This document shows positions 13,653-35,918 of a stretch of 64,000 nt of DNA, piece after piece (position 1 is the stretch's first letter; every line of letters begins with the position of its first letter). Below the pieces are notes generated by a model, which searched no databases, was not told where the DNA came from, and saw only the letters and a program-made list of their open reading frames with translations. The stretch lies in the NCBI GenBank assembly GCA_003339415.1, contig PDHQ01000004.1, positions 370,207 to 434,206 of the forward strand. Direction: 5' to 3'. This DNA is from Ophiocordyceps camponoti-saundersi (nom. inval.) (taxonomy: Eukaryota; Ascomycota; Sordariomycetes; Hypocreales; Ophiocordycipitaceae). A program made the position numbers and the translations under genes.

Positions 13653-14661
13653 CTATCCGCCACTGGCCGGCATGGCGCCGGACCGCTTACCCATTCGAGA
13701 TACGTCCTTGCGGGCAAAGATGGCGTCCCCGTTAACAATCATGCTGTGGTCGGCAATCTCTATCTGTCCTGCGTTCTCGCCCGATCCCATGAAGCGACGC
13801 ATCGTCGACTCCCACAAACGAAAGCGCTCCCGACCGTGGCTGTCTCGTTCGACCAGAGTCTTGGCCTCCTTCTGCTTGCGCATCTTGGAGGCGCGAACCA
13901 GTCTGCGTAGCGCGTCCTCGCCTTGCTGAGCGGTGCGCGCGGCTTCCTCGCGGATCTTTTTTGGATCGCGGCCGCCAGTTTCGTCCTGCGGAGTGTGACG
14001 ATAGGTGTGTCGGCTTGGGAAGTCGGGGAAGGAGGCAGGAATGAAGCCCTTGGCGTCCTTGTCGGCCTGACCGCTGAGCTCTTGGGTCAGCAGCGGCAGC
14101 GTGCGGAGGGCGTCATCGGCTACAGCGACGTTTCTGTAGGAAGGGACGAGCTGCGGTCGTCGGGATAGGGGGTGTTTAAGGTGAGGTCGCAACGACGCTG
14201 TGGTGATGTTGTGGAAACGCATCGCTAGGCCGAAGTCGGTGGGGATGGGAAGCTCGCGACGCGACGACAGGGCGAATCTCTTGGTCTCTTCTACCATAGA
14301 GTCGATGACTGCGAGCGTTGCGAATAAGTAACGCAACGCATCGGGAATCACCCAGGAAGGGGCCGAACATACAAGTCTCAACCAGGTTGGTGAAGCTCTC
14401 CATGGCCTCGGGTGTCGCCGACGAGAAGCCGTCATGATCAAGAATGAGGGCTATGGACCTTTGAAGCCCTAGGCGGGCTTTGTGATGATGAGTGAGTGAC
14501 AAAGATTCGGACGCTCGCTCGGTGTCGTCAACGAGCTCGTTGATAGATTCATCCACGAGGTCGAGCCGCGCTTCTGCAGGGAGAGTACTGCTCGCTCTCA
14601 GACGTTTGGAGCAGGTTTCGGGGTTGCTCTTATCGGGAGAGAGGCTTCGCTTGGACGCCAT
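13653..14661 (-). CDS. TAF8: TFIID subunit TAF8
   Basis: Two exons (14373-14661 and 13653-14308, minus strand) give 314 residues. After a basic Ser-rich N-terminus comes a bromodomain-associated histone-fold region (ARLGLQRSIALILDHDGFSS through ESFTNLVETFIDSM). Then comes the TAF8 C-terminal domain with the diagnostic FIPASFPDFPSRHTYRHTP, followed by a basic helical stretch RLVRASKMRKQKEAKTLVER. TAF8 pairs with TAF10 in TFIID and helps nuclear assembly of the complex. The intron uses gtatgt and a cgcag acceptor. The gene is divergent from the triple-domain gene at 15346, with about 680 bp between starts. Confidence 0.9.
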
Positions 14662-15345: not shown

Positions 15346-17871
15346 ATGTTTTCTTTCGATACAGCCGCTTTACCCCAGCTCATTACACGCAAAGCCCTCA
15401 TCGCCGTCGACCTTCAAAATGACTTCGTCGGCGATGATGCGGCCCTACCAGTGCACGAGCCGGATGGTTTCGTCACCAGGACCGTCGCACTTGCCGAAGC
15501 TTTCCGCGCCGTGGGTGACGTCGTCTGGGTCCAGTCACACTTCGACGAGCCTCGGCCCGTCGACGCGGCGCACATTATAGTGTCGGATGAAACGTCGAAG
15601 CAGCCGCCGCCACCATCGGTATCGCGTCGGCCTGTGCGTCGCTCTCGGCCGAAACCATCCGAGGAGGACCCTCGGCCGGACCGTGACTCTACCGGCCTCG
15701 CAGACCCGGAAGCCTTTCTGAGCGGGGACACGCCCGCCTGTGTACGCCCCAAGTCACTGGGCGCTGAGCTCTCGTCCGTCGTCAAGGATGCCGTCCGTCG
15801 CGGTGACCCCATCTTGGTCAAGACTCACTACTCCGCCTTTCAAGGGACAGCTCTTCTTCGACGTCTGCAATCCCACATGGTTACGGAGGTCTTCATCTGC
15901 GGCTCTCTGGTCAATGTCGGCGTTCATGCCACCACTCTCGACGCCGCTGGTCACGGGATGAGCATTACTCTTGTCGAGGATTGCTGCGGCTATCGCAGCG
16001 ACGTGCGGCAGGCCAAGGCTGTGAAGAACCTCGTTCATCTCACGGGCTGTGACGTCGCCACCAGCGAGGATATCTTGCGTGTCATGAGGCCCTCGGAGGA
16101 GAAGACGAGAGAGAGATTGCCCACTAAAGGGAAGACGGAGGAGGATTCACAAATCGAGGTAGCGGGGGAAGAGAAGGAGAAGACGGACGAGGACGAGGAG
16201 AAATCGCCCGGCCTTTTGAAGTCTATGGCGGGGCTTAGGCTCGTGAGCAGTTCGCCGGAAGACGAGACCGCGGCCATTCATGAAGCCGTCATCACCACTT
16301 CGCCCGATGACCAGGCATCATCACCCAAGTCATCCTCAAGCGAGGAGGATGAGGAGGACGACGAAGACGATGTTGATGAAGATGACGAGGCCATCTGCGA
16401 AGGCGACACGCACGTAATCCTAAACGTGCTCCCCCCTTCCCTTGAGCATGACATGTTCGACCGGCTCCGATCCCAACTCCAGTGGCAACCCATGAGCCAC
16501 CAGGGCAACCTCGTACCGCGCCTCATCGCCGTTCAAGGCACCGTCTCAGCCGACGGCTCGGCCGTGCCCATATATCGCCATCCAGCCGACGAGTCCCCCC
16601 CTCTACTGCCCTTTTCCGAACCCGTGCTGGCCATCAAGGCCGAGGTCGAGCGTCATCTCGGCCACCCAGTCAACCACGCGCTCATCCAACTCTACCGCGG
16701 CGGAAGCGATCACATCTCAGAGCATAGCGACAAGACGCTCGACATCGTGCCAGGCTCCTACATCGCAAACCTCAGCCTAGGCGCCCGGCGAACCATGGTC
16801 TTCCGCACCAAACGCGCCGCCAGTAACCCTTCTCGCCTCATCCAACGCGCGGTGCTGCCTCACAACTCGCTTTGTCGCATGGGCCTCCGCACAAATATGA
16901 AGTGGCTCCACGCTATCCGCCAAGACCGTCGAGCTGATAGGGACAAGACGCCCCCGGAGCTGGCCTTCGGCGGAGCCCGCATCTCCCTCACGTTCCGTCG
17001 CATCGGCACCTTTCTCGATCCTCATCAGGCCCTCATCTGGGGCCAAGGCGCCAAGGCAAAGACGCGCGCCGAAGCCCGCCCCGTAATCGACGGCCAAGGC
17101 CCCGAGGCTATCGATATGCTTCGCGCCTTCGGGACAGAGAATCACGCTTCCGTCGTCGACTGGGAAGCACTATACGGCCAAGGTTTCGACGTGTTGCACA
17201 TCCGCAGTGCACCTCGCCTCTTCGCCTCGGACGACGCCGTCGTGAATATGCGCCTCTCTGTCATGCTGGCTGAGCTCGGCGTCTCGCATGCCAAGGGCAG
17301 GCTGACCACCGGCGACAACGTTGACGACGACGACGACGACAAAGACGTAGCTGTCAAATTCGTCGACAACGATGCTATGAGGACGACTGTTTCCGGTGAC
17401 ATGGCCATCATGCTCTACCTGGATTCCTGCTACGGCGGCGCTCAAACGGCTTCGCGCGGGGAACTCGGCCGTCGCTACACCCACTTCCATCGCGCCTTAG
17501 GACTTCTGGAAGACTTCCGCACAGCGAAGCCCGTCAAGGAGGCACAAGACGAGACAATGCGCAAATCCTCGTCACAAAAAGACGACCTTCCCAAGCCCCT
17601 CAAACGTCAACTCCAAGCCTGGAACGCCATCACCGCTTCTTCCTCTTCCTCTTCCTCCTCATCCTCATCCTCGTCCTACCTCTTCCTCGCCGGCACCACC
17701 AAACCCTCCCTCCCCGACTTCGCCCTCTGGCCCGTCCTGCACGCCATGGTTGAGCGCCACGGCCGAGACGTCGTCCTCGATCGCCGAGACAGTCTGCGTC
17801 GCTACTATGACGCGTTCGCGGCGCGGGACAGCGTCACCGCGCTTCTATCCCATCGACACGCAGGCTCTTGA
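15346..17871 (+). CDS. Three-domain fusion: isochorismatase-like, AlkB-like dioxygenase, GST-like
   Basis: Intronless, 841 residues. Residues about 15-255 form an isochorismatase-like fold: ALIAVDLQNDFVG (D22), ILVKTHYSAF (K159) and ICGSLVNVGVHATT, where the position of the usual nucleophilic Cys is G192. An acidic linker follows (about 255-365). Residues about 370-560 match AlkB-type Fe(II)/2-oxoglutarate dioxygenases: LIQLYRGGSDHISEHSDK with an HxD pair (H460, D462), distal H522 in MKWLHAI, and RISLTFRRI (R545, R551) for 2-oxoglutarate and substrate. Residues about 590-841 look like a glutathione S-transferase: a thioredoxin-like half (LRLSV-type helix, MAIMLYLDSCYG) and an alpha-helical half (FLAGTTKPSLPDFALWPVLH, LRRYYDAFAARDSV), interrupted by a poly-Ser run. 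Possible roles are nucleic-acid or small-molecule dealkylation with detoxification; the actual substrate is unknown. Confidence 0.88.
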   Translation: MFSFDTAALPQLITRKALIAVDLQNDFVGDDAALPVHEPDGFVTRTVALAEAFRAVGDVVWVQSHFDEPRPVDAAHIIVSDETSKQPPPPSVSRRPVRRSRPKPSEEDPRPDRDSTGLADPEAFLSGDTPACVRPKSLGAELSSVVKDAVRRGDPILVKTHYSAFQGTALLRRLQSHMVTEVFICGSLVNVGVHATTLDAAGHGMSITLVEDCCGYRSDVRQAKAVKNLVHLTGCDVATSEDILRVMRPSEEKTRERLPTKGKTEEDSQIEVAGEEKEKTDEDEEKSPGLLKSMAGLRLVSSSPEDETAAIHEAVITTSPDDQASSPKSSSSEEDEEDDEDDVDEDDEAICEGDTHVILNVLPPSLEHDMFDRLRSQLQWQPMSHQGNLVPRLIAVQGTVSADGSAVPIYRHPADESPPLLPFSEPVLAIKAEVERHLGHPVNHALIQLYRGGSDHISEHSDKTLDIVPGSYIANLSLGARRTMVFRTKRAASNPSRLIQRAVLPHNSLCRMGLRTNMKWLHAIRQDRRADRDKTPPELAFGGARISLTFRRIGTFLDPHQALIWGQGAKAKTRAEARPVIDGQGPEAIDMLRAFGTENHASVVDWEALYGQGFDVLHIRSAPRLFASDDAVVNMRLSVMLAELGVSHAKGRLTTGDNVDDDDDDKDVAVKFVDNDAMRTTVSGDMAIMLYLDSCYGGAQTASRGELGRRYTHFHRALGLLEDFRTAKPVKEAQDETMRKSSSQKDDLPKPLKRQLQAWNAITASSSSSSSSSSSSSYLFLAGTTKPSLPDFALWPVLHAMVERHGRDVVLDRRDSLRRYYDAFAARDSVTALLSHRHAGS

Positions 17872-18288: not shown

Positions 18289-20015
18289 TCAGTTAGCCGA
18301 ATCCCATGGCAGTGGATACGTGCCAACCCAATCCTCGACCTCGCTGCGCAACTGAACGATCTCAGGCTCATTGTCGCCATTGTCCAGATGTTCGAGGAAA
18401 AGGCTCAGCTTGCCGGGACTCTTTTCACCCTTCTCCTTGGCCGCGGCCCTCACCGTCTTGTCTAGACGGCAAGCGATGGCGACGGCCCTGTCGACGACGT
18501 CGGCGACCCTCACGAAATCGTCCTCGTTGAAGCCGCGCGTCGTCATGGCAGGCGTGCCCATGCGAAGCCCACCAGGGACCAGCGCCGACCGATCTCCCGG
18601 CACCGTATTCTTGTTGGCCGCGACGCCGACGAGCTCAAGCACACGCTCAACCCTCCCTCCGTCGATGCCGTTGGGCTTGAGGTCTGTCAGCACGAGGTGG
18701 TTGTCGGTTCCGCCCGAGACGAGGCTGTAGCCTAGACCGCCCTTGCCCTTGGCCTCGCCGAGGCGCTTGGCGAAGGCCTTGGCGTTGGCCAAGACTTGTA
18801 GTTGGTAGGCGTGGAAGTCGGCCGACTGGGCTTGCTTGAGGGCGACGGCGAGCGCTGCGATGGTATGATTGTGCGGTCCGCCCTGGTGGCCTGGGAAGAC
18901 GGATGCGTTGATAGGATTGGCCAAGTCGTAAAGCTCGTCCTGCTTGGTCTTCGGGTTCTGCCTCCGCACACCGGTTCGGTAGAAGATCAGGGCGCCGCGG
19001 GGCCCGCGTAAACTCTTGTGGCTGGTGGTGGTGACGATATCCGCGTGCGGAAAGGGACTGGGTAGCACTTTGGCGGCAACGAGACCCGAGATGTGAGCCA
19101 TGTCGGCGAGCAGATAGGCATTCACCTTGTCACAGATATCGCGCATGCGCTGATAGTCGATGAGCCGGCTGTAAGCGCTGGCACCGGCCACGATAATCTT
19201 AGGACGGTATAGCACAGCAAGTTTCTCCAGCATATCATAGTCGATGAGCCCGGTCGATTCATCCAGGCGATATGGCAGCGTCTCGAAGTACTTTGATATG
19301 AAAGAGATCTTCTTCGTCGGTGTCTGGTAGCCGTGCGATAAGTGACCGCCATGTGTGAGGTCCAGACCCATAAGCCGATCGTGCGTGTTCATCAAAGCGG
19401 AGAAGACGTAGAGATTTGCCGGCGCGCCAGAGAGAGCTGCATCGTGTTTCGTCAGACAATGTCTCAGGACGCTATACAGGCCGGAAAAATGTCACCTACC
19501 TTGGACGTTGACGCCCCATTTCTTGGGATCCAGATCAAAGGCCTCGAGAGCACGACGCTGGCAGAGACGCTCAGACTCGTCGATGAACTCGTTACCGCCG
19601 TAGTAGCGAGCGCCAGGATAGCCCTCCGAGTACTTGTCTTTCACAAATCAGTCCACGAACAGCCAGAAAACCCATTATTTGTCAAGGCTCACTCTGCATC
19701 ACGCTGCCGAGGGCATCGAGAACAGCTTGCGAGGTGAAGTTCTCCGAAGGGATAAGGTTGATGAAGTGTTTCTGCCGCCGTTTCTCCTGCGAGGCGTCTC
19801 AGCATCGAAAAAGCACTCTTCATAGATTCTTTCAACGCCACACACACATTCTCAATGATGTCGAAGACGGCAGCGTCGGCTCGTTGCAAGTGAGCCGCGA
19901 GAAGCTGCTGCTGACCATCGAGAGCCATCGACGACTTGGCCGCTCTCGGAATCCGTACCGCCACGCGACGGAGAGCGCGGGTCGTGCCTCGCAGGACGGG
20001 CGTCGCGGGAGACAT
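18289..20015 (-). CDS. SHM1: Serine hydroxymethyltransferase, mitochondrial
   Basis: Four exons on the minus strand: 19848-20015, 19693-19786, 19500-19637 and 18289-19436. The product has 515 residues. The start [21 protein letters not shown] is an Arg-rich mitochondrial targeting peptide. SHMT landmarks in order are [69 protein letters not shown] (PLP-binding Asp), [18 protein letters not shown] (Schiff-base Lys at about residue 274) and [21 protein letters not shown]. The enzyme interconverts serine and glycine with tetrahydrofolate, feeding one-carbon metabolism. The active-site stretch reads TTTSHK rather than the commoner TTTTHK, a conservative change. A second, cytosolic SHMT is expected elsewhere in the genome. 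Confidence 0.97.
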
Positions 20016-28301: not shown

Positions 28302-28733
28302 CAAGGAGAGCTTTGGGTGATTCGAGGCGAGCGATTTGGCGGTGGCACAAATCGCCTCGAGTCTGTTGAAGATCGTCCATGCTTATCTATGTACACGCCT
28401 ATCTAGATCCTTTGTATGAGCATGTATCCGGATGCAAGTGAGAATGTAACGACGTATGCGCAATGTCGGAATGGTTTGGTGAGCTTAGATATTGATGTAC
28501 ATTTTGGTATACAAGAGGTCGCTTAGAACGTCATTGTGCTGTACTTCCGGACATACAGAGATGTAAGCTGCAGGCGGCATACCGCGCATTCTTCTTACCT
28601 GGGGCTGAATAGCATCGCCCCCTGTGTTTGTGTGTCTGCAAGTAGGCATGTGCCTTGGCCATGTTCATTGCGTCATCTCGATGTCTATCGATGCCTTTCA
28701 ACACTCCCCATTCAGTCTCCGGTCCAGAGCCAG
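28302..28733. promoter_or_regulatory. Divergent promoter between membrane-protein and HET genes
   Basis: About 430 bp shared 5' region with no gene. The HET reading frame stays open upstream through it, but without an ATG before 28734. Confidence 0.5.
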
Positions 28734-30956
28734 ATGGTCTTGGATATGACAGCATCAACATCTTCGTCAATCTCCTCCATCGGCCCCCTAGACCGACCCG
28801 GAAGCGGTAGGGATTCCTTACGAGCCTCACGCAGCGGCCATCGACCGTCTTGGCTCTGGAGAAATCCGAGATGGCTGGGCTATCCGCATGACGGATATCG
28901 AGTTACGCCCTTCCACGAATACCTCGAAGCTCGACCTTCTGATCTGCAAGGAGCATGGAATCTTTCACAGAGTCGACGAGAAGCCGCGAGCATGCAAAGC
29001 CTTCTCACCCTGGGACTGATGGAAGCCGTCATGGAAAGGCCCGTTCCCGAGAACGTCATGATCATGCAAGGCCAGTCTGGGGAGCTGCTCATGACCAATG
29101 ACGGCCTTGACGAGACCATCCAGGATTGGATCAATGCCATGCAGCATCGTGGCCAAGATGAACTCCAGACGCTTCGAGAAAGAATTGACCTCAATCTCAC
29201 CAGAGCTCAAGCTTTGCTCCTGGCACACTTCAAGGCAGGCTTTCGCGTCTTCGATCCTTTGGGCGACGACGTACCGTCCTTGGTGTGCTTCATCGGCATC
29301 GTCTGCGAATCACTGACACAGGCGAGAATGGCCTTCCCCAGCAATCAGCCGCATCTAGGACTGTCTTGGTGGATGGTGTTGCCCAAGAGTTACCAAGAGC
29401 TGATCCGGAGAGAGATGACAGAAGATGGATGGTGTCCCTCGATGGTCGAATACCTCATCAACTTGGGCTCTACCTCAGTCTTGGAATACGCCTGTAAAGC
29501 CGGACCGGTAGAGGGCGGCTACAGTCATGAGGCTTGTTCGCCAGTGTCTTGTGCGGCTTATAACGTTGATCCGGAAAACTACATTCCCAAGCACACGCAT
29601 TCATGCATGCAGAAAAATATCTTCTCGTCTGGCGATGAGAATGACTGCGGATATTGCGCCGCGCCGTTGGATCAAGTCAAAAGCCTCATCCTTAGTGGTG
29701 AAAAGCCCGTCTTGACTCTCTGCGAAGTCACAGGTCATCGGCTACCAGTCCTCGAACTTCACAAAGCGTCTGACTTTCCGTACGTAGCCATCTCTCACGT
29801 CTGGGCAGACGGACTGGGGAGTACGACAGAAAAGGGGCTTCCCGCTTGCCAGTTGCGTCGGTTGGCCTCTCTTGTGTCAGAGGTTAAGCCCGGGGCGGCG
29901 TTCTGGATAGACGGTTTGTGCGTCCCCGAGGAATCGCAAGCTCGAGAGCAGGCCATAGCGATGATGGCACGCATATATCAAGATGCGGCCGCCGTCCTGG
30001 TTCTCGACAGCGGCCTACAAATCTGCCGCTCCGACCAGCACCTGGGCACGAAATTGCTGCGCACGCTGACTTGCGGCTGGATGAGACGCCTTTGGACGCT
30101 CCAGGAGGCTGCACTGAGCAAAGAGCTCCATCTAGTCCTCGCCGACGGCCAATGTCCGCTAAAAGCTCTGATACCGCACGGTAGCCTCTACTTTCAGCGA
30201 CCTCTGCTCGATCTTGCGGCGGAACTGTTTCGACTCACAAAGTGGTCTACATACGGCTCCTACTCCCTCGGTGACGTGGCTCGAGCTCTGACCTGGAGAA
30301 ACACGTCGAAAAGGTCGGACGAAACGCTGGCCGTAGCCGGTCTGTTGGACGTGAAGCCTTCGATTCTCACCGCGATGAGGCCAGAAGAGCGTATCATGCG
30401 GTTGATGCAGGTCATGGGAAGGGTGCCCCGGAACGTGCTGTTCCTTCATGGGAAGAAGCTTCAGCTCCATGGCTTCAGCTGGGCCCCAACGTCCTTCATG
30501 GCTGCTCACGGAGGCGCAGCCCAAGGACCGCTTCTGTCAACATCTGACACCGACGCCGTAGTGACGCCCCGAGGTCTCGCCGCCACCTACTTCGCTCTCG
30601 TTCTCCCTAGAAAGATGCCGAAGAAGGGATTGAACGCTTGGCGGCTGAGAGATACCAAGACTGGGAAGCTCTACCTTGTAGCGGAGACGGAGTCCGACAA
30701 AACAGAGCCAAACGCTTGCGACCTGCTTCTGACTCCCAACGACGCCTCTCTGGGCAGCGTGGTCTCATGCGTCGGTGCTCTCATCACGGGCCACGTGGCT
30801 GAGCCTGCCTGTGAAGAGTCAAACAGCCCCTATACTGTATTCTGCCGCTTTCGACGCCGCCTGCTGTTGCATTGCGTGACCGCCTTTACGAATGATAGTG
30901 AAGTTGACGAGGTTGAAACTCCCGTGTCCGGGAAGTTATCGGTCTGCGTGGGATAG
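28734..30956 (+). CDS. HET-domain (heterokaryon incompatibility) protein
   Basis: A single exon of 740 residues from the first in-frame ATG (MVLDMTASTSSSISS). An N-terminal region of about 330 residues of unknown fold includes a Cys/His-containing patch (AYNVDPENYIPKHTHSCMQ, ENDCGYCAAP). It leads into the HET domain at about 340-480: FPYVAISHVWADGLGS, AAFWIDGLCVPEE, AIAMMARIYQDAAAVLVLD and MRRLWTLQEAALSKELHLV. The C-terminal part carries no repeat array or NACHT/WD domain. HET domains, distantly TIR-like, trigger cell death on recognition of non-self in fungal fusion. Here a sensor partner would have to be another protein; the divergent membrane protein at 27008 is a candidate by position only. 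Confidence 0.9.
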   Translation: MVLDMTASTSSSISSIGPLDRPGSGRDSLRASRSGHRPSWLWRNPRWLGYPHDGYRVTPFHEYLEARPSDLQGAWNLSQSRREAASMQSLLTLGLMEAVMERPVPENVMIMQGQSGELLMTNDGLDETIQDWINAMQHRGQDELQTLRERIDLNLTRAQALLLAHFKAGFRVFDPLGDDVPSLVCFIGIVCESLTQARMAFPSNQPHLGLSWWMVLPKSYQELIRREMTEDGWCPSMVEYLINLGSTSVLEYACKAGPVEGGYSHEACSPVSCAAYNVDPENYIPKHTHSCMQKNIFSSGDENDCGYCAAPLDQVKSLILSGEKPVLTLCEVTGHRLPVLELHKASDFPYVAISHVWADGLGSTTEKGLPACQLRRLASLVSEVKPGAAFWIDGLCVPEESQAREQAIAMMARIYQDAAAVLVLDSGLQICRSDQHLGTKLLRTLTCGWMRRLWTLQEAALSKELHLVLADGQCPLKALIPHGSLYFQRPLLDLAAELFRLTKWSTYGSYSLGDVARALTWRNTSKRSDETLAVAGLLDVKPSILTAMRPEERIMRLMQVMGRVPRNVLFLHGKKLQLHGFSWAPTSFMAAHGGAAQGPLLSTSDTDAVVTPRGLAATYFALVLPRKMPKKGLNAWRLRDTKTGKLYLVAETESDKTEPNACDLLLTPNDASLGSVVSCVGALITGHVAEPACEESNSPYTVFCRFRRRLLLHCVTAFTNDSEVDEVETPVSGKLSVCVG

Positions 30957-34365: not shown

Positions 34366-34800
34366 TCATGATGCCTTTTCCTTCTCCAGCGCCTCGTCGT
34401 CTTGCTCCTCCTGGCGATCAGCTTCGGCCAGATCCTCGGCGGACCTGTTATCGGCGGTGGCCTGAGAGCGCTTGCTGACACCCTGGGCCGCGGACTGCTC
34501 ATCTTCTTGCTCCTCTTCACGATCAGCTTCGGCCAGATCCTCGGCGGACCTGTTGTCGGCGGTGGCCTGAGAGCGTTTGCTGAGACCCTGGGCCGCGGAC
34601 TGCTCGTCTTCTTGCTCCTCTTCACGATCAGCTTGGGCCAGATCCTCGGCGGACCTGTTATCGGCGGTGGCTTGAGAGCGTTTGCTAAGACCCTGGGCCG
34701 CGAGCTGCTTGTCGTCTTCCTCCTCTTCACGATCAGCCTCGGCGAGAGCCTCTGCGGATCTGTCATCGGCCGTGGCGGCGACGGTGCGCTTGTGAAGACT
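34366..34800 (-). repeat. About 105-nt tandem repeat coding KR-flanked acidic peptides
   Basis: Four in-frame copies. Copies 2 and 3 are 35 codons and almost identical in DNA; copy 1 is more diverged and 36 codons; copy 4 has a different end (ALEKEKAS) at the stop. Each unit begins after KR and contains ATADNRSAEDLA(E/Q)ADR. Near-identity at DNA level implies recent duplication or homogenisation. Confidence 0.85.
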
Positions 34801-35918
34801 CCGCGTGTCAATCTCGTTCTCACTGTCATCCTGCGAATCGACCACGTTGGAATTGTCAACGCGCTTGACCTGGTAGCGCTTCTTCAGACGATAGACGACG
34901 GCTCGCTTGATGGCGTTCTGGGACTGAGTGACGGCGCAAGAGCCTCCGAAGGGGCCGGCAGGGGTCTTGTTGCGCATACGGCAGATGCATACGCCCTGAG
35001 CTCCGCCGCAGGAAGCCTTGCAGACCATGCCCTGGGGCAGGGAGACGTTCATCCCGAACTCGGTGTTGGTCGCCAGCGAAAGACCGAGCACGGCTCCGGG
35101 GACGTTGGTGCCGATGTCGGCCTTTTGGAAGGCGTCGTTTTGAGTGCCGCAGCTTGTACCGTCGCATTCCATTTCCAGGGGACCAGCGCCATCCTGGTTG
35201 ATCTGTATCCGAGAGAGAGTCAGTTGGAGAGGTCCTGATATGCAGAAGAGAGAAGACGAGTTCTCTGAATGAAGAGAACGAACCTGGCGGTAGACGACGT
35301 TGAAGTTGCCCTTATCATCCGTCGTGGGAAGACCGCTCTGAGCTCCGGAGCCAGCAGTGTCGGCAACGGACGTCTCGCTGGCAAAGTTGCTCTTCTGGCC
35401 CTGAGCCTTGGCTCCGCCGCCGCCGCCGCCACCGAGACCGCCGAGGAGGTTGTCAAGGAGGCCGCGCATGAAGATTGTGCGCTGAGCGAGGCGCTTTTCC
35501 TTGATTTGCTTGATGCCAGCCTTGTCGAGATCGTCTTCCTGGCCGACGCCTTTGTTGTTCTTGTTGCTCTGGGTAGACTTGCTTCCACCCATGAAGTTGG
35601 AGATGGCGTTCTCGGCGTTGACGGGGCCGTTTCCTTGTGTCCTTCCCAGAGGGTTCTGCACCATTTCACGATCCCGGAGGATGGTGGTGTCGGCCTGGGA
35701 GCCGCAGCCGTTTGTAGAGCAGTCTCGAGGCGTGCCGTCGGTGACTTTTCAGGGAGAATTAGAATCATGTAGGTCGAGAATAAAGAAATCAAGATAGGGG
35801 AAGAGACTATACCACTTAGACCGGGCATCATGACGCCGTTGGATCCCATGCAAGCAACAGGGAGACCGTGTGCCGAAGCACCGACGATGAAAGCCGCAGA
35901 GACGATGGCGTACCGCAT
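34366..35918 (-). CDS. GEgh16/Egh16H-like secreted protein with Lys-Arg-separated repeat tail
   Basis: Exons on the minus strand: 35813-35918, 35284-35744 and 34366-35202. The product has 467 residues. A signal peptide (MRYAIVSAAFIVGASAHG) leads into a domain with the GEgh16 hallmarks HGLPVACMGSNGVMMPGLSG, DGTPRDCSTNGCGSQADT and the Cys-rich GMVCKASCGGAQGVCICR. GEgh16-type proteins (Magnaporthe GAS1/GAS2/MAS3, powdery mildew Egh16) are made at host contact and during penetration. After about residue 330 the protein changes to four acidic units of about 35 residues, each preceded by Lys-Arg (LSKRSQATADNRS), rich in Glu/Asp/Gln/Ala. The Lys-Arg sites fit Kex2 cleavage. A central Gly run is also present. 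The tail is unlike the ordinary family end. Confidence 0.88.

Follow-up and report, generated by a model that had tools for sequence, protein, structure and literature searches.

The substrate preference of AlkB-type Fe(II)/2-oxoglutarate (2OG) dioxygenases has been probed in the Escherichia coli enzyme, where Asp135 holds the base amino group (PMC11065319) and is able to form hydrogen bonds with the amino groups of A and C (PMC7968990, PMC11065319; here and below, cited papers are represented by parts of their text). The engineered D135T variant surpasses D135S on N1-methylguanine (m1G), with a kcat/Km of 15.7 per min per µM given in a review (PMC11065319), and still works on m1A and m3C (N1-methyladenine and 3-methylcytosine) in tRNA (PMC7968990, PMC11065319); homologues that naturally carry Ser there have also been noted (PMC7968990). 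Among fungi, Fusarium graminearum has five AlkB proteins, namely ALKBH2 (FGRRES_09872), which measures 933 residues and contains PF13532, and four others of 228-443 residues (PMC10826363). Here we describe a gene in a 64,000-nucleotide stretch of the Ophiocordyceps camponoti-saundersi genome (contig PDHQ01000004.1, positions 370,207 to 434,206; hereafter the window), whose 841-residue product joins an isochorismatase-fold domain, an AlkB domain and a glutathione transferase (GST)-like end. This product is probably an ALKBH2-type Fe(II)/2OG nucleic-acid dealkylase, fused in the Sordariomycete lineage between an N-terminal isochorismatase-fold and a C-terminal GST-fold domain that were both retooled. 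The conserved fusion within a single gene, the complete AlkB site and the lack of both a Cys nucleophile and an [E/Q][S/T] pair are read from the sequence; dealkylation and the roles of the flanks are what we infer from it.

A Pfam scan of the single open frame bore out the three regions named in the initial annotation, returning PF00857 (isochorismatase; residues 17-242, E 1.5e-26), PF13532 (2OG-FeII_Oxy_2; residues 355-551, E 5.8e-33) and PF24470 ('Isochorismatase, thioredoxin-like'; residues 621-698, E 4.2e-29). What had been called a GST-like end is better described as a thioredoxin-like domain followed by a GST-C-like domain; the GST_C_2 model itself (residues 775-823, E 9.2e-05) reaches 22.9 bits in the window protein, below its curated cut-off of 24.9. 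A full-length search found 1670 proteins at E ≤1e-3 among 7992 scored, and all counts of listed relatives refer to the best 120 of these 1670. According to precomputed Pfam annotation, PF00857, PF13532 and PF24470 are all present in 120/120, so that two adjacent genes run together by chance are ruled out. In seven fused relatives that were rescanned, the domains follow the order isochorismatase, AlkB, PF24470, and in three of the seven (P0008, P0019, P0111) other GST_C models exceed their cut-offs. The product is divided as follows, in window coordinates, with confidence given as the predicted local distance difference test (pLDDT):

15346..17871, + strand: whole gene, a single open frame of 841 codons plus stop with an ATG start (also Pfam domains, relatives)
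15394..16071, + strand: isochorismatase-fold domain, residues 17-242 (Pfam PF00857)
15409-15411, + strand: Asp22, kept
15550..15696, + strand: variable insertion within the isochorismatase domain, residues 69-117 (mean identity 0.29; pLDDT <50 at 79-116)
15820-15822, + strand: Lys159, kept
15919-15921, + strand: Gly192, at the nucleophile position (alignment)
16096..16389, + strand: acidic, disordered linker between isochorismatase and AlkB domains, residues 251-348 (mean identity 0.22; pLDDT <50 and net charge -22 for 252-346)
16408..16998, + strand: AlkB (2OG-FeII_Oxy_2) catalytic domain, residues 355-551 (Pfam, conserved site residues, ALKBH2 as best match)
16723-16725, + strand: His460, metal ligand of the AlkB site
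16729-16731, + strand: Asp462, metal ligand of the AlkB site
16735..16737, + strand: Thr464, opposite E. coli AlkB Asp135 (alignment)
16909-16911, + strand: His522, metal ligand of the AlkB site
16978-16980, + strand: Arg545, 2OG residue of the AlkB site
16996-16998, + strand: Arg551, 2OG residue of the AlkB site
17014..17181, + strand: AlkB-associated tail, residues 557-612 (IWGQGA...DW..YG; alignment), common to stand-alone fungal AlkBs
17206..17439, + strand: thioredoxin-like (GST N-terminal-like) domain PF24470, residues 621-698 (Pfam, alignments)
17440..17859, + strand: GST-C-like helical domain, residues 699-838 (AlphaFold2 (AF2) model, GST fold matches)

The HxD...H iron site and the RxxxxxR 2OG site, formed by H460, D462, H522, R545 and R551, were correctly placed by the initial annotation and are kept together in 120/120 listed relatives. 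Human ALKBH2 is the nearest solved relative both by sequence (E 1.5e-15) and by profile (E 6.4e-19), and is also the best Foldseek match (E 2.2e-11), with human ALKBH3 representing the second AlkB family among solved relatives. Mean identity of the listed relatives to the window protein is 0.71 for the AlkB domain, 0.58 for the isochorismatase domain, 0.55 for the thioredoxin-like domain and 0.34 for the GST-C half, making AlkB the best-conserved part of the fusion and GST-C the least conserved folded domain; judged from its sequence, the AlkB core alone has the look of a complete enzyme within the fusion. The PCNA-binding APIM motif is known from ALKBH2; regular expressions recovered it in 0/121 proteins, a PIP-like pattern in 3/121 and a peroxisomal tail in 0/121.

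In the alignment with E. coli AlkB, Lys463 lies opposite Lys134, and the position of Asp135, two residues after the metal Asp, lacks an acidic residue, with Thr in 119 and Ser in one of the 120 relatives. The protein is a member of the AlkB superfamily by sequence, and we do not claim canonical m1A/m3C specificity for it. By its AlkB module it falls into a fungal HxDKT subfamily, which is also found alone: an AlkB-only search gave 791 matches, of which the best 120 were listed, many of them from Basidiomycota by name, with the motif reading HSDKT in 115, HADKT in four and HCDKT in one. The presence of HxDKT throughout these listed matches indicates that the change to Thr is older than the fusion. 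Basidiomycota and some Ascomycota have this AlkB plus tail as a protein of its own, which makes the AlkB core the earlier part; the stand-alone proteins aligned stop near the tail motif '...DW..YG.GF.VL'.

We also placed 238 AlkB segments in a tree, leaving out P0113, P0129 and P0200; it was built by a quick method with SH-aLRT support only, and 92 of its 235 inner branches are open. A branch with support 98 sets apart all 120 fused rows, together with 11 rows from the AlkB-only search that include fragments, split gene models, three proteins with PF24470 and a 300-residue Blumeria protein. The label fused or stand-alone changes three times on this tree, compared to 79.3 times in shuffles, and the starred branches force at least two changes, which calls for either a second origin or a loss. 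The pattern is compatible with a single fusion followed by a few losses or split annotations, a second origin being conceivable. In Sporothrix epigloea (003193/003194; P0242/P0231) and Staphylotrichum tortipilum (32672/32673; P0248/P0122) the two halves appear as consecutively numbered gene models, through either real fission or annotation error.

The closest relative among the matches listed is an Ophiocordyceps camponoti-leonardi protein, 80% identical over its full length, and named relatives there include Fusarium, Trichoderma, Metarhizium, Claviceps, Colletotrichum and Verticillium, all of which we take to be Sordariomycetes. As to fused forms beyond Sordariomycetes, the matches listed are the best 120 of 1670, and P0129 from Golovinomyces, on a 1190-base contig, is a possible contamination. 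The fusion is known to databases, widespread and equipped with its own Pfam domain, PF24470, rather than unique to the window. Our literature searches, one of which was unspecific and listed 10 of 1164 records, showed no paper on an isochorismatase-AlkB-GST triple fusion; the initial idea of an undescribed system is thus partly right, holding as far as these publications go but not in view of the database record and of a likely F. graminearum orthologue that already bears the name ALKBH2 (PMC10826363). What we describe is apparently a conserved, undescribed variant of ALKBH2-type enzymes, not a new system.

This orthology is suggested by size: 27 rows named Fusarium among the matches listed measure 907-949 residues, a range into which the 933 residues of ALKBH2 fit, whereas the other F. 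graminearum AlkBs have 228-443, making ALKBH2 probably the orthologue of the fusion. Its expression climbs dramatically at ascospore formation (PMC10826363). In the main text of that paper, term searches gave no hit for isochorismatase, glutathione or methyl methanesulfonate (MMS). ALKB2 has been described as co-evolving with cytosine methyltransferases, a correlation that is weaker in fungi, and repeat-induced point mutation (RIP) is described as occurring at meiosis (review PMC9246332). The source genome contains two DNA_methylase loci, detected as three exon-wise matches (L012, L013, L014) on contigs C17 and C583 with frames of 604 and 1177 residues; by size these are perhaps, at a guess, of the RID and DIM-2 types.

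The isochorismatase domain, split into two halves by the insertion at residues 69-117, was compared with Cys-nucleophile amidases of its superfamily, which use an Asp-Lys-Cys catalytic triad (nicotinamidase, N-carbamoylsarcosine amidase, biuret hydrolase). The nucleophile column holds Gly in 120/120 listed relatives and Cys in 0/120, ruling out an active Cys amidase. When this domain was searched separately, with length limits that hide fused proteins, 15 matches were obtained, with seven Gly, seven Ser and one Cys at the nucleophile position (assigned partly by eye). Fourteen of them, four with fungal names, resemble the fusion's own isochorismatase domain, and the Cys occurs solely in the fifteenth, the remote Cys hydrolase P0255 (27% identity). 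Pocket motifs are nevertheless invariant in 52 rows (Y162-S163-x-F165, G186-S187, N190, C213-x-G215), suggesting that the pocket still binds something.

At the opposite end, AF2 modelled residues 600-841 as a thioredoxin-like plus helical GST fold (pLDDT 85.1; predicted template-modelling score, pTM, 0.82). Single-sequence comparison of this end with the PDB gave nothing useful, but profile searches did match GSTs. Glutathione transferases carry a glutathione-binding [E/Q][S/T] pair at the start of helix 3 and a cis-proline preceding strand 3. In the alignment with the rho-class GST 3qav, the window protein has G684-D685 in place of the pair, which is found in 0/120 listed relatives; the cis-proline column holds Pro in 60 of the 120, with five gaps, and Ala in the window protein. 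Within the GST-C-like domain there is also a poly-Ser tract of 13 residues (765-777; window 17638-17676), missing in six relatives aligned.

The initial annotation had proposed a combined alkylation-damage role, with repair by AlkB and glutathione conjugation of electrophiles by the GST. The AlkB part of this proposal is upheld by ALKBH2 and ALKBH3 as nearest solved relatives and by the metal and 2OG residues, while absence of [E/Q][S/T] in every listed relative leaves an AlkB-plus-GST detoxification chain unsupported; with the variable cis-proline column and the poor conservation of GST-C added, a combined detoxification enzyme is very improbable. An active isochorismatase domain is unlikely too, though by a lesser degree. 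It would act as a Gly-type, EntB/YecD-like hydrolase on a small molecule tied to alkylation or base breakdown, making the protein truly bifunctional, and several features speak for it: Asp22 and Lys159 are both kept in 118/120 listed relatives, the Gly is aligned with that of E. coli EntB, as is the Lys, and with that of the third-ranked solved sequence, 3txy, the pocket motifs are conserved, and the best NCBIfam match is PRK11440, which we take to be E. coli YecD, albeit at 40.1 bits against a cut-off of 195. On the other hand, the EntB match leaves some of the domain uncovered (25.1 bits, the N-terminal Asp segment scoring -2.1), the two top-ranking solved sequences, 1ilw and 5zn8, carry the Cys that their mechanism requires, and Ser in 7 of the 15 domain matches shows that the position drifts.

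Somewhat less doubtful than a second enzymatic activity, yet still a minority view, is an RNA demethylase for tRNA or mRNA, rather than a DNA repair enzyme, with flanks that bind RNA or a partner. The likely F. graminearum orthologue is treated as a putative eraser of N6-methyladenosine, m6A (PMC10826363), ALKBH3 is the second AlkB family among the solved relatives, and E. coli AlkB D135T is active on m1G, m1A and m3C in tRNA (PMC7968990); against this stands ALKBH2 as the closest relative by sequence and fold. An artefact of gene joining or assembly, of which the adjacent half-gene models of Sporothrix and Staphylotrichum might be reminiscent, has a negligible probability and was rejected on the basis of the open frame in the window and the domain set conserved in all listed relatives.

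For a retooled ALKBH2-type dealkylase, the reading we prefer, the AlkB core would take alkyl groups off DNA or RNA bases as aldehyde (formaldehyde in the case of methyl), while the flanking domains, without the usual chemistry of their families, might serve for ligand or partner binding or for dimerisation, and thereby control or place the core. The need for such an enzyme would be greatest around spore formation, a plausible source of damage being cytosine methyltransferases with 3-methylcytosine as by-product; we infer this tie between the fusion and spore-stage methyltransferase damage. Several points weigh against the reading. The full-length structure model is weak overall (mean pLDDT 68.7, pTM 0.40), which affects domain placement, and pLDDT falls below 50 across residues 457-468, the stretch that includes H460, D462 and T464. 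EntB is an active isochorismatase despite its Gly, so that loss of the Cys is no proof of an inactive domain. Orthology with F. graminearum ALKBH2 is a match of length alone, and growth, perithecia and ascospores were normal when m6A factors were deleted singly, the knockouts named being MTA1 and ALKBH1 (PMC10826363).

Activity of the E. coli D135T mutant on N1-methylguanine (PMC7968990) makes guanine lesions a substrate worth testing for the HxDKT type. It is conceivable, though we regard it as rather doubtful, that this family constitutes a natural guanine-lesion AlkB, repairing m1G or N2-guanine adducts beside a separate HxDDE AlkB, and that in the fused form the isochorismatase and GST-like pockets, without chemistry of their own, act as metabolite sensors that gate the repair core in spores. 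D135T activity is here carried over from E. coli AlkB to a distant fungal enzyme, in the region where the local model is least sure (457-468). The 45.7 Mb source genome yields three further PF13532 matches, one of which (L004, 1390-2064, - strand) has an HSDDE motif, suggesting that it and the HxDKT type share the work between them; the other two were labelled by eye, one as having a GRF-like tail and one as ALKBH1-like.

The gene is flanked by a divergent upstream neighbour (13653-14441, - strand) with a TAF8 C-terminal domain (PF10406, E 3.1e-17), a TFIID subunit, and by a convergent downstream neighbour (18289-19395, - strand) for serine hydroxymethyltransferase (PF00464, E 3e-140), an enzyme of one-carbon metabolism. 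Further along the window are an 806-residue frame (28536-30956, + strand) with a heterokaryon incompatibility (HET) domain (PF06985, E 1.5e-09) and a 432-residue Egh16-like frame (34366-35664, - strand; PF11327, E 6.3e-28). The C-terminal end of the latter bears a run of 105-base tandem repeats (3.7 copies, 90% matches); their peptide units close with Lys-Arg, in the manner of Kex2-processed repeat precursors.

The fusion represents a widespread, apparently unstudied repair-type architecture in moulds, crop pathogens, biocontrol agents and insect pathogens among them. It is also a clean example of a DNA/RNA repair enzyme that seems to have taken on two enzyme folds as partners without catalysis of their own. 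The finding is real, if of modest interest; its one sharp testable idea is the natural D135T-like change, through which it can be tested directly whether the engineers' solution for N1-methylguanine is also used in nature.

Compared with described proteins, the core shares the AlkB fold and the HxD...H metal site with human ALKBH2 and ALKBH3, its closest solved counterparts by sequence and fold, but where human ALKBH2 has D-E after HxD, the window protein has K-T, in addition to two extra domains and an extra C-terminal tail. The stand-alone fungal HxDKT AlkBs P0127 (Phellopilus) and P0161 (Polytolypa) come nearer, their AlkB domains being 59% and 56% identical to that of the window protein, with the same K-T and the same IWGQGA tail; they comprise only 281 and 346 residues, however, and PF13532 is the sole Pfam domain found in them and in P0192. 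Like EntB and PhzD, the isochorismatase part combines Gly in the nucleophile column with retained Asp and Lys, but it differs from the EntB/PhzD/YecD branch in its long internal insertion and its fusion to AlkB. The C-terminal end, finally, combines a thioredoxin-like with an all-helical GST fold as in Ure2p-like and Pi-class GSTs, from which the family is set apart by the missing [E/Q][S/T] pair and the variable cis-proline column.
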